A stretch of 37,454 bases of DNA from Propionibacteriaceae bacterium. Its GTDB lineage: Bacteria; Actinomycetota; Actinomycetes; Propionibacteriales; Propionibacteriaceae. Positions 33,373 to 37,443 of the stretch are shown here, one piece after another (positions within the stretch are counted from its first letter, which is position 1; every line of letters starts with the position of its first letter). The DNA lies in assembly GCA_017882685.1 (NCBI GenBank), contig JADGPA010000206.1, forward strand, positions 1 through 37,454, given 5' to 3'. The position numbers and the translations under genes were made by a program. Below the pieces are notes generated by a model. The model had not been told where the DNA came from, made no database searches, and was given only the letters and a program-made list of their open reading frames with translations.

Positions 33373-33459
33373 TCTGGGAACGTCGAATCCGAGGCGGCTT
33401 GAGGAAGACTTGAGGTGGGCTTAGGCAGTTCTGCTGAGACGCTGACCTACCGTGGAGGC

Positions 33460-34497
33460 ATGCCTATCGTCCCCCCGCTGGAATCCGGTCTGTTCGGGTT
33501 CATTGCCGGCCTCCCCATGCATCCCCTGGTCGTGCATGCCGCGGTTGTGCTCCTTCCCCTCTCCGCGCTCGTGCTCGTCGTGCTGGTGTTCGTGCCGTCC
33601 TGGCGCACCAGGTACGGCTGGGCGACGATCGCCGGCCTCGCTGCGGGAACCGCCGCAGCCTTCGTGGCGAAGGAGTCCGGCGAGGCGCTGGCGGCCAAGG
33701 TGGGGCTCCCGGCCGACCACGCGCTGTGGGGCGACATCCTCGTGCCGGTGTCCATCGGGCTGTTCGTGGTTGCGGTGGCCTGGCTGGTACTCCGCAACCG
33801 CGCGGCTCGCACCTCGAGCAGGTCCATGGCGGCAACGATCACCGGCGGGCTCGCGGTTGTCCTCGCGCTGGCTGCGACAGCGATCACCGTCGTGGTCGGG
33901 CACAGCGGCGCCCAGACGGTCTGGGCGGGCGGGGTCGGTGGGACGCCCGCTCCGACATCCTCAGCATCTGCGGCCACCTACACCATGAAAGACGTGAAGG
34001 CCCACGCCACTGCCGCAGACTGCTGGAGCGTGGTCGACGGAACGGTCTACAACCTCACGTCCTGGGAGGGCCAGCACCCCGGCGGCCAGCAGGTCATCGT
34101 CGGGATGTGTGGCGCCGACGGCACCGCGGCGTTCAAGGGCCAGCACGGCACCCAGAAGCGGCCGGTTTCCGCGCTCGCGCAGTTCGCGATCGGCACCATC
34201 GGCGGCGCGAAGCCGGCGGCCAGCGCCAGTGCGTCCTCGACGCCGACCGCCAGCGACTCTTCGGGGCCGCTGACCCTGGCAGAGGTCAACAAGCACGCTT
34301 CCGCCTCCTCCTGCTGGTCGGTCGTCGACGGTGAGGTCTTCGACCTGACCAAGTGGATCAACCGCCACCCGGGCGGCGCCAAGCGCATCCTCGGCATGTG
34401 TGGCCAGGACGGCTCCTCGGCCTACCACGGCCAGCACGGCAACTCGGGTCAGGCCTCGCAGATCCTCAACGGTTACTCCCTCGGCAAGCTCGGCTGA
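33460..34497 (+). CDS. DUF2231 membrane domain fused to two exported cytochrome b5-like domains
   Basis: GLPMHPLVVHAAVVLLPLSALVLVV (DUF2231-like, about 4 TM), then two b5 domains: CWSVVDGTVYNLTSWEGQHPGGQQVIVGMCGADGTAAFKGQHG and CWSVVDGEVFDLTKWINRHPGGAKRILGMCGQDGSSAYHGQHG. Confidence 0.9.
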   Translation: MPIVPPLESGLFGFIAGLPMHPLVVHAAVVLLPLSALVLVVLVFVPSWRTRYGWATIAGLAAGTAAAFVAKESGEALAAKVGLPADHALWGDILVPVSIGLFVVAVAWLVLRNRAARTSSRSMAATITGGLAVVLALAATAITVVVGHSGAQTVWAGGVGGTPAPTSSASAATYTMKDVKAHATAADCWSVVDGTVYNLTSWEGQHPGGQQVIVGMCGADGTAAFKGQHGTQKRPVSALAQFAIGTIGGAKPAASASASSTPTASDSSGPLTLAEVNKHASASSCWSVVDGEVFDLTKWINRHPGGAKRILGMCGQDGSSAYHGQHGNSGQASQILNGYSLGKLG

Positions 34498-34521
34498 CCG
34501 GCCACCCAGGAAAGGCACCCC

Positions 34522-34971
34522 ATGAACCCCCTGCGTATCCTCAGGACCATCCTCATCCCGCTGGTATTCGCACTTCCCCTTGCGGCCTGCTCCGCCGCTG
34601 CCACAACGAGCTCCAGCGGCCCGGCGGCGACGGCCTCCGCGACCTCGGCCTCGCAGTCCCCGAGCGTGACCCCGACAACGGCGAGTGCCTCGGCCAGCCC
34701 GTCGGCTTCCCCCACGCCGACCCCGTCCTCCACGGTGAAGAGCTTCTCCATGGCGCGGGTGAAGGAGCACGCATCTGCCGCCTCCTGCTGGTCCGCTGTC
34801 GACGGCAAGGTGTACGACCTCACCAAGTGGATCGGCCGGCACCCGGGCGGACGTGCACGCATCATCGCGATGTGCGGCAAGGACGGCACCGCCACCTTCC
34901 GCGGTGAGCACGGCAAGGAGCGCGGGCCGAGCAACGACCTGAAGCGCTACCTGATCGGACCGCTGGCCTGA
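34522..34971 (+). CDS. Lipoprotein with a cytochrome b5-like domain
   Basis: Signal + lipobox LAAC (PLAACSAAATTSSSG), Ser/Thr/Pro linker, CWSAVDGKVYDLTKWIGRHPGGRARIIAMCGKDGTATFRGEHG. Confidence 0.9.
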   Translation: MNPLRILRTILIPLVFALPLAACSAAATTSSSGPAATASATSASQSPSVTPTTASASASPSASPTPTPSSTVKSFSMARVKEHASAASCWSAVDGKVYDLTKWIGRHPGGRARIIAMCGKDGTATFRGEHGKERGPSNDLKRYLIGPLA

Positions 34972-34973
34972 GC

Positions 34974-36683
34974 ATGGGCACCGACGGCGCGACGGGTGGA
35001 CGGACGGACGACCCGGTATTGGTTGTAGCTGCGCCGGTCGTTCCCGCACCGGAAGGCACCGGCACCAGTTCAGCCCGTTCGCGCTGGCTCGGTTTCGGCG
35101 TGCTCGCCGCCGGGCTGGCGATGATCGTCCTCGACGGCACGGTGGTCAACGTGGCCCTGCCGGCGATCATCGACGACCTCGATCTCGGCCTCAACGAGGC
35201 GCAGTGGGTCACATGCCTGTACGCGGTGATCTTCGCAGCCCTTCTGCTGACCAGCGGGCGGCTGGGTGATCGGTACGGCCGCCGGCTGATGTTCCTGATT
35301 GGGGTGGGTGTCTTCGTCGCAGCCAGCTTCGCCGCAGCAGGGGCCAACGATTCCGGCGAACTGATCTGGTCGCGGTGCGCCCAGGGATTCGGCGCCGCCT
35401 TCATCCTCCCCGCAACTCTTTCCACCGTGAACGCCACCTTTCGGGGCCGCGACCGCTCGGTAGCCTTCGGCATCTGGGGTGCCGTGATGGCCGGCGCTGC
35501 TGCGGTCGGCCCCCTGATCGGCGGCTGGCTCACCACCAGCCTCAGCTGGCGCTGGGTCTTCCTCATAAACCTGCCCATCGGGGTGGCTATCGTGCTGCTC
35601 GGGCTGCGGTTCGTCCCGGAGACACGGGATGAGACCGCCCGTGGCGGGTTCGACGTTCTCGGGCTCGTTACCAGTGCCGTCGGCTTCGGCCTGGTGGTGT
35701 TCGCCCTCATCGAGGGGCAGTCACTGGGCTGGCTGCGGCCGTCCACCGACCTGACCGTCCTCGACGCCACCTGGCCGGAAACGGCCCCGATTTCCGTTGT
35801 GCCGGTGGCGCTGGCGATCGGGCTGGTCTCCCTCGGGCTGTTCTGGTGGCTGCAGCGACGCCGCGCAACCCGGGGCCGTCCGGTGATCCTCGACCTCACC
35901 CTGTTCGCGGTGCCGACGTTCGGTTGGGGCAACCTGACCGCGGCCATGGTGGCGGCGGGGGAGTTCGCGCTGCTGTTCGTCCTGCCCCTCTACCTGGTGT
36001 ACGCCATGCAACTCACCATCATGCAGACCGGCTGGGTGTTGGCCGCGATGGCGATCGGGGCATTCGTCGCCGGCGCCGGGGCGCGACATCTGGCCGCACG
36101 CCTCGGTCCCGCCCGGGTGGTGACGGTAGGCCTGCTCCTCGAACTGGGGGCTGCAGTGGCCGCGGCGCTGGTGATCGGCAACGCACCGAGCGTGTGGGCG
36201 ATCACCGTCCTGCTGGCGGTGTACGGCCTCGGTCTCGGCCTTGCCGCAGCGCAGCTGACGTCCGTGGTCCTGCACGACGTGCCGGTCGCACAGTCGGGTA
36301 CGGCTTCTGCAACGCAGAGCACCGTCCGGCAGCTTGGGTCTGCCGTCGGCGCGGCAGTGGCGGGCACCGTGCTCGCGATCGGGTTCACGATCACCGTGCC
36401 GGCGAGGCTTGCGCTTGTGAAGGGGGTCAGCACGGACGACGCCATGACCATGATCGACTACATGACCGGCACGGCAGGCGCGGTGATCTCGATGATTCGT
36501 GCCAAGGGCAACGACGGCTACTTCGGGAATCTCGGGCCGCAGGTCGCGGACGCGATGTCGGAATGCTTCGCCTGGTCGGTGGGCTGGGTGCTGTGGGGCG
36601 CAGTGTTCTTCATCGCGCTCGGCGTGCTCGGCGCCCTGCGGGTCGAGCTCGCTGCCCGGCAGGCACGCCCCGCAGAGGTGTAA
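34974..36683 (+). CDS. MFS transporter, DHA2 (EmrB/QacA-like, 14 TM)
   Basis: LGFGVLAAGLAMIVLDGTVVNVALPAIIDDLDLGLNEAQWVTCLYAVIFAALLLTSGRLGDRYGRRLMFLIGV; motif A and N-terminal D-TVVNVALP. Confidence 0.94.
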   Translation: MGTDGATGGRTDDPVLVVAAPVVPAPEGTGTSSARSRWLGFGVLAAGLAMIVLDGTVVNVALPAIIDDLDLGLNEAQWVTCLYAVIFAALLLTSGRLGDRYGRRLMFLIGVGVFVAASFAAAGANDSGELIWSRCAQGFGAAFILPATLSTVNATFRGRDRSVAFGIWGAVMAGAAAVGPLIGGWLTTSLSWRWVFLINLPIGVAIVLLGLRFVPETRDETARGGFDVLGLVTSAVGFGLVVFALIEGQSLGWLRPSTDLTVLDATWPETAPISVVPVALAIGLVSLGLFWWLQRRRATRGRPVILDLTLFAVPTFGWGNLTAAMVAAGEFALLFVLPLYLVYAMQLTIMQTGWVLAAMAIGAFVAGAGARHLAARLGPARVVTVGLLLELGAAVAAALVIGNAPSVWAITVLLAVYGLGLGLAAAQLTSVVLHDVPVAQSGTASATQSTVRQLGSAVGAAVAGTVLAIGFTITVPARLALVKGVSTDDAMTMIDYMTGTAGAVISMIRAKGNDGYFGNLGPQVADAMSECFAWSVGWVLWGAVFFIALGVLGALRVELAARQARPAEV

Positions 36684-36765: not shown

Positions 36766-37443
36766 ATGGGTCAGACCCCGCAACAACCCCCGCAGATCGG
36801 CCAGGTTGCGAATGGCTATCAGTGGAACGGTGTCCAGTGGATTCCGTTGGGTCCTCCGCCACAGGTCGGGCAGGTCTCCAACGGTTACCAGTGGAACGGT
36901 GTCCAGTGGATTCCGTTGGGCCCTCCGCCACAGGTCGGGCAGGTCGCGAATGGGTACCAGTGGAACGGTGTCGAGTGGATTCCGCTGGCGCCACCCTCGG
37001 CGCAGCCAGCCTCAGAAGCAGTGCTCGTGGGCGAGATCGGGCGATATGCCCAGACTGCGGGATTCACGGTCCGGCAGTCGGCGCACCAGCTGACGCTGGA
37101 GCGGGTGGTGGGAGAGCGGAAGGCCTTCCTCTCCAGCGCGAAGCTCGAGTATCGCGCCACGATCTCGCTCGATGAAGGGCGCAGGACCGCCAGGTTCACG
37201 GAGATGCTGAAGGAATCGGGGACGGGCCTCACCAGCGGCGGTGGTGACGACGGGGACTTCGGGACGGGGACCGGTTTCGGCTTCCAGAAGACGTCGTACA
37301 ACTCGCGGACCGATGGCATCGAGGAGTCCATCGACGAGCAGGCCGCCCGGTTCGGCACCAAGTACGTTCCCGGTTTCCCGTACGCGGAGGTGAAGGGACA
37401 ACTCGGCAACATTTGTGTGGCCGCTGGGTACTCCTTCACCTGA
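36766..37443 (+). CDS. Hypothetical protein with three N-terminal 23-aa repeats
   Basis: PPQ[IV]GQV[AS]NGYQWNGV[QE]WIPL[GA]P x3, then a unique C-terminal domain; ends CVAAGYSFT*. Confidence 0.75.
   Translation: MGQTPQQPPQIGQVANGYQWNGVQWIPLGPPPQVGQVSNGYQWNGVQWIPLGPPPQVGQVANGYQWNGVEWIPLAPPSAQPASEAVLVGEIGRYAQTAGFTVRQSAHQLTLERVVGERKAFLSSAKLEYRATISLDEGRRTARFTEMLKESGTGLTSGGGDDGDFGTGTGFGFQKTSYNSRTDGIEESIDEQAARFGTKYVPGFPYAEVKGQLGNICVAAGYSFT
36787..36993 (+). repeat. In-frame 69-bp x3 tandem repeat
   Basis: Units 36787-36855, 36856-36924, 36925-36993; cagtggaacggtgtc core recurs at 36820, 36889 and 36958 (exact 69-bp period). Confidence 0.92.

Follow-up and report, generated by a model that had tools for sequence, protein, structure and literature searches.

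A DUF2231-cytochrome b5 fusion protein and a b5 lipoprotein as putative exported haem-b electron carriers of Actinomycetota

Eukaryotic microsomal and mitochondrial cytochrome b5 (e.g., 1cyo) is tail-anchored and faces the cytosol. A bacterial version of the b5 fold is found in cytochrome b558 of Ectothiorhodospira vacuolata (1cxy), which we take to be periplasmic. In Actinomycetota, the membrane domain DUF2231, a family without assigned function, precedes a C-terminal electron carrier in DUF2231-Rieske proteins, where that carrier is an iron-sulfur domain, and on one occasion in a DUF2231-cupredoxin protein, where it is a blue-copper-like domain. Here we compare these systems with a locus from a Propionibacteriaceae bacterium, contained in a stretch of 37,454 nucleotides (hereafter, the window), in which DUF2231 is followed by two cytochrome b5 domains within a single protein, P0001, and in which a neighboring lipoprotein, P0002, carries a third (Table 1).

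Table 1. Coordinates of the DUF2231-b5 locus and its downstream gene in the window
Feature	Position	Strand	Evidence or remarks
DUF2231-b5-b5 fusion protein P0001, 345 aa	33460..34497	+	Pfam, AF2
DUF2231 four-helix membrane domain of P0001	33508..33942	+	invariant H21, H26, H87; H148 mostly conserved
First Cyt-b5 domain of P0001	33982..34200	+	60.4 bits; C188, H206 (HPGG), C217, H229
Second Cyt-b5 domain of P0001	34273..34491	+	62.6 bits; C285, H303, C314, H326
Lipoprotein P0002, 149 aa, one Cyt-b5 domain	34522..34971	+	lipobox LAAC
Third Cyt-b5 domain, within P0002	34750..34965	+	63.7 bits
MFS transporter	34974..36683	+	PF07690 E 4.5e-47

P0001 matches PF09990 (DUF2231) at residues 17-161 (E 4.5e-14; 53.1 bits, cut-off 26.4) and PF00173 (Cyt-b5) over two stretches (E 5.5e-34), while P0002 has a single PF00173 domain (E 4.8e-17) downstream of a signal with a lipobox. 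We preferred the ATG at 33460 to a GTG at 33415 as the start of P0001, since it is preceded by TGGAGG, a good candidate ribosome-binding site. The two genes are separated by 24 bases, and the MFS transporter gene starts 2 bases past the end of P0002, so that all three may form one transcript at this locus; the transporter is not conserved beside the relatives. The same genome holds a fourth b5 gene, encoding another lipoprotein and interrupted by a contig end (L004), as well as two additional DUF2231 genes. Further downstream in the window, a 69-base tandem repeat (36793-36988; 2.8 copies, 88% match) encodes a repeated NGYQWNGVQWIPLGPPPQVGQV at the N terminus of an ORF of 225 aa that has no match in Pfam.

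All three b5 domains display the HPGG motif and a second histidine in G(Q/E)HG, giving the axial pairs H206/H229 and H303/H326 in P0001 and an equivalent pair in P0002, with a spacing of 23 residues counted in the sequence. Each also contains one cysteine in a CW and another in an MCG motif. The domains score 60-64 bits against a curated profile cut-off of 23.7, and in the AF2 model of P0001 four long helices are followed by two b5 folds. A Foldseek search returned 50 matches at E<=0.001, the matches listed being b5 structures with TMt values up to 0.87. Fold and sequence alike match cytochrome b5, far beyond chance. These results agree with the initial annotation, which had described, from the sequence alone, three b5 domains with HPGG and a second histidine, two conserved cysteines per domain, a four-helix DUF2231 anchor and a lipoprotein partner.

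The best PDB sequence match of both P0001 and P0002 is 1cxy (E 4.3e-13 to P0002), which superimposes on the predicted b5 fold with a TM-score of 0.84 over the target and whose cysteines at the CW and CG positions fall one to one in the same columns as ours. It differs from the domains of the window by an HPGP in place of HPGG and by a longer loop to the second histidine, and from P0001 by the absence of a DUF2231 fusion. Eukaryotic b5 shares the haem-binding fold, HPGG and second histidine, but the aligned eukaryotic rows listed lack the cysteine pair, and their second histidine lies one residue further from HPGG. Across 66 aligned DUF2231-b5 fusions, C188, C217, H206 and H229 are each present in 66/66, such that the cysteine pair is as constant as the predicted haem ligands. 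Each b5 domain would be expected to bind one haem via two histidines, and the CW and MCG cysteines may form a disulfide that stabilizes the domain outside the cell.

The location of the domains was assessed from the distribution of charges around the four helices (residues 20-44, 46-81, 85-118 and 123-160 in P0001). Over 61 sequences, the mean number of Lys/Arg residues was 2.75 in the loop after helix 1 and 3.56 in the loop after helix 3, compared with 0.36 at the N terminus, 1.08 in the loop between helices 2 and 3 and 0.56 past helix 4. The positive-inside sum placed both termini outside in 59/61 sequences and inside in none, as had been proposed for P0001. The linker between DUF2231 and b5 spans 17-61 residues (median 36), 71% of which are Pro, Ser, Thr or Ala, and nearby b5 partners, which recur in several lineages, carry export signals: lipoproteins are adjacent to the fusion in the window and at L055 and within a few kb at L089, L090 and L190, and the partners at L041 and L052 have a signal peptide. 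Charge pattern, linker composition and partner export signals together make an extracytoplasmic location of the b5 domains likely. An opposite topology for Rieske-fused DUF2231 proteins was considered and found to be unsupported, 15/21 of them sharing the same charge pattern.

We think it quite probable that P0001 and P0002 form a pair of electron carriers that are exported, contain haem b and have the cytochrome b5 fold. The assignment as an extracytoplasmic haem-b5 carrier is well supported by inference from the invariant ligands and cysteines of the 66 fusions, the topology obtained for 59/61 sequences, the linkers, the exported partners and the 1cxy match. Domains, ligands, cysteines, export signals and recurrence are read directly from sequence; haem loading, the disulfide, the donor, the acceptor and the direction of electron flow are what we infer in the following scheme. 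P0001 would be anchored by the four helices of its DUF2231 domain, both termini of which would lie outside, and a flexible linker of Pro, Ser, Thr and Ala would carry its two b5 domains; P0002 would present a single b5 domain held by a lipid anchor; every domain would carry one bis-histidine haem and an internal Cys-Cys bond conferring stability outside the cell. Electrons would probably enter at the outer face of the membrane, supplied by a donor within it for which menaquinol is the simplest candidate, conjecturally at or near a conserved histidine cluster of DUF2231, and could then pass from the tethered b5 domains of P0001 to that of P0002 and on to an external acceptor. If so, many Gram-positive actinobacteria, Arachnia and Schaalia included, would possess a haem-b carrier outside the cell, bypassing the need for cytochrome c maturation.

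To determine how widespread this layout is, we searched P0001 in 198 genomes of the window's order, which recovered the DUF2231-b5 fusion again in its genus and family. A scan of the collection gave 464 candidate relatives, of which 80 loci were kept, all in Actinomycetota, from Micropruina, Propioniciclava, Tessaracoccus, Arachnia, Kineosporia, Arsenicicoccus, Phycicoccus, Kocuria, Schaalia, Nanchangia and uncultured lineages; a further fusion (L180) comes from the same phylum but from a lineage further removed. These fusions nearly always have one b5 domain, and two-b5 forms, that of Kineosporia among them, amount to 5/66. The cluster of three b5 domains is thus a detail of this locus, while the fusion itself is widespread. 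Within the window's family, Cyt-b5 is patchy (24/98 genomes), a point against the carrier model; a b5 tree was mostly without resolution, and a search of plasmids for b5 gave one weak match. In the literature searched, which left out most subscription journals, one paper mentioned DUF2231 and none linked it with cytochrome b5. We found no description of the DUF2231-b5 layout, which we regard as a variant, widespread in its occurrence, of the exported b5 proteins of bacteria.

Clustering of the genes around 65 fusions revealed no conserved partner gene, the genes nearby being unrelated (sarcosine-oxidase-like, DUF349, VIT1, MMPL), so the neighbors point to no electron donor or acceptor, which likewise weighs against the carrier model. 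The initial annotation had suggested looking for further fusions and their neighbors, with a role in respiration or metal reduction in mind: the fusions recur across Actinomycetota, but with no neighbor conserved such a role is left without genomic support. At one locus, a DUF6790 membrane protein (L080:9482-9964) is encoded 15 bases upstream of the DUF2231-b5 gene.

The lack of a conserved neighbor is compatible with another arrangement, in which DUF2231 serves as a passive anchor for b5 domains that dock to a separate oxidoreductase. The same type of b5 also exists in proteins that have just a lipid anchor or just a signal peptide, which favors this arrangement too. This explanation is possible but somewhat doubtful, as it leaves invariant polar histidines at the membrane face unaccounted for. 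In the 66 fusions, H87 is present in 66/66 and H148 in 61/66; H21 and H26 are invariant, which must be read knowing that the scan pattern contained both, and they are likewise invariant in an independently collected set (n=20). Helix boundaries and the predicted topology place all four near the outer face.

These histidines raise the alternative that DUF2231 is itself a membrane-spanning cytochrome of the b type, in which H21, H26, H87 and H148 would hold one or two haems, making P0001 a full wire from membrane to outside. Besides the conservation and position of the four residues, this proposal draws on the three kinds of electron carrier found as fusion partners and on a paralogue from a genome of the same genus (L188; G131:C2:666774-668989), which keeps the DUF2231-b5 architecture and both cysteines and has lost both b5 haem histidines along with H26 and H148, retaining H21 and H87. 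This single case also fits the carrier model, and hints that some membrane histidines may matter only while b5 carries haem. Against a membrane haem, H148 is replaced by Asp or Glu in 5/66 fusions whose b5 is intact and in roughly two thirds of the DUF2231 relatives that stand alone, the Rieske-type domains do not conserve H26, and known haem proteins include no structural relative, a fold search with DUF2231 having given no significant match among solved structures. A haem ligand is seldom exchanged for Asp or Glu, whereas metal, proton or quinol sites commonly show such an exchange, and the H148 swap would fit a site of this kind at least as well as haem. We regard a haem-binding DUF2231 as rather unlikely. 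The relay that the initial annotation had envisaged accordingly stands as far as the exported b5 carrier is concerned; for its suggestion that DUF2231 also binds haem, the invariance of H21, H26 and H87 is set against the H148 exchanges and the missing fold match.

H148 was also considered as a marker of b5 fusion, being a histidine in 61/66 fusions versus 14/44 stand-alone proteins (p about 2e-11; two of the 44 had been read at an incorrect position and are actually Asp). We dropped this idea, since the residue follows lineage, stand-alone DUF2231 proteins of the window's family mostly retaining the histidine, and since the Asp/Glu fusions keep an intact b5.

DUF2231 was present in 64/150 sampled genomes of the phylum. 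Among 24 DUF2231 proteins selected for an extended C-terminal region, 21 have a Rieske domain there, one a cupredoxin and one a b5 domain. The Rieske fusions lie among L137, L145-L168, L176 and L177, a range not all of whose members are such fusions. They resemble P0001 in having DUF2231 followed by a C-terminal electron carrier, but their carrier is iron-sulfur rather than haem and their DUF2231 is mostly of an HPxLTD type that lacks the second histidine: only the first histidine is in register, and another lies near the start of helix 3. The b5-fused, cupredoxin-fused and some stand-alone DUF2231 domains belong instead to one type, with HPxxVH, a helix-3 histidine and [HDE]SGA at helix 4. 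The cupredoxin protein (L166:1486-2736), from another actinobacterial lineage, thus shares the DUF2231 type of P0001 (HPLVVH, GHSGA) and ends in a plastocyanin-like domain with a copper site in place of haem.

Given its fusions to Rieske, cupredoxin and b5, DUF2231 looks like a recurrent general anchor for redox domains. It might, tentatively and at rather low probability, be more than that: a quinol-oxidizing or haem/metal-binding membrane module feeding the fused Rieske, cytochrome b5 or cupredoxin domain, in which case DUF2231-b5 would, in Actinomycetota, lead electrons from the quinone pool out of the cell by way of a single protein. This possible role as a general electron-transfer module is the most interesting aspect of the locus, and fusion to three unrelated carriers combined with histidines at one face makes DUF2231 a testable candidate for an electron-transfer anchor.

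The same range of fusion partners bears on whether the b5 domains transfer electrons at all. They could instead handle haem or another ligand, as in haem acquisition or steroid/lipid binding, given that the Pfam family name spans haem and steroid binding and that surface lipoproteins often bind nutrients. We find this improbable: both axial histidines are invariant, in contrast to the MAPR-type steroid-binding branch, and the other DUF2231 partners, Rieske and cupredoxin, are redox domains. That b5 modules stand in for exported c-type cytochromes where cytochrome c maturation was lost, as four b5-bearing species of the window's genus without ResB might suggest, is very improbable and was rejected, since the window's own genome has ResB and ResB is absent in 4/22 b5-bearing versus 12/76 other genomes of the family (p = 0.75).

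Finally, we observed a second, divergent b5-like membrane-tethered protein in the window's family (L185, L186 and L187), which has a single N-terminal helix and HHG in place of HPGG, with MCG in none of the three and CW in two.
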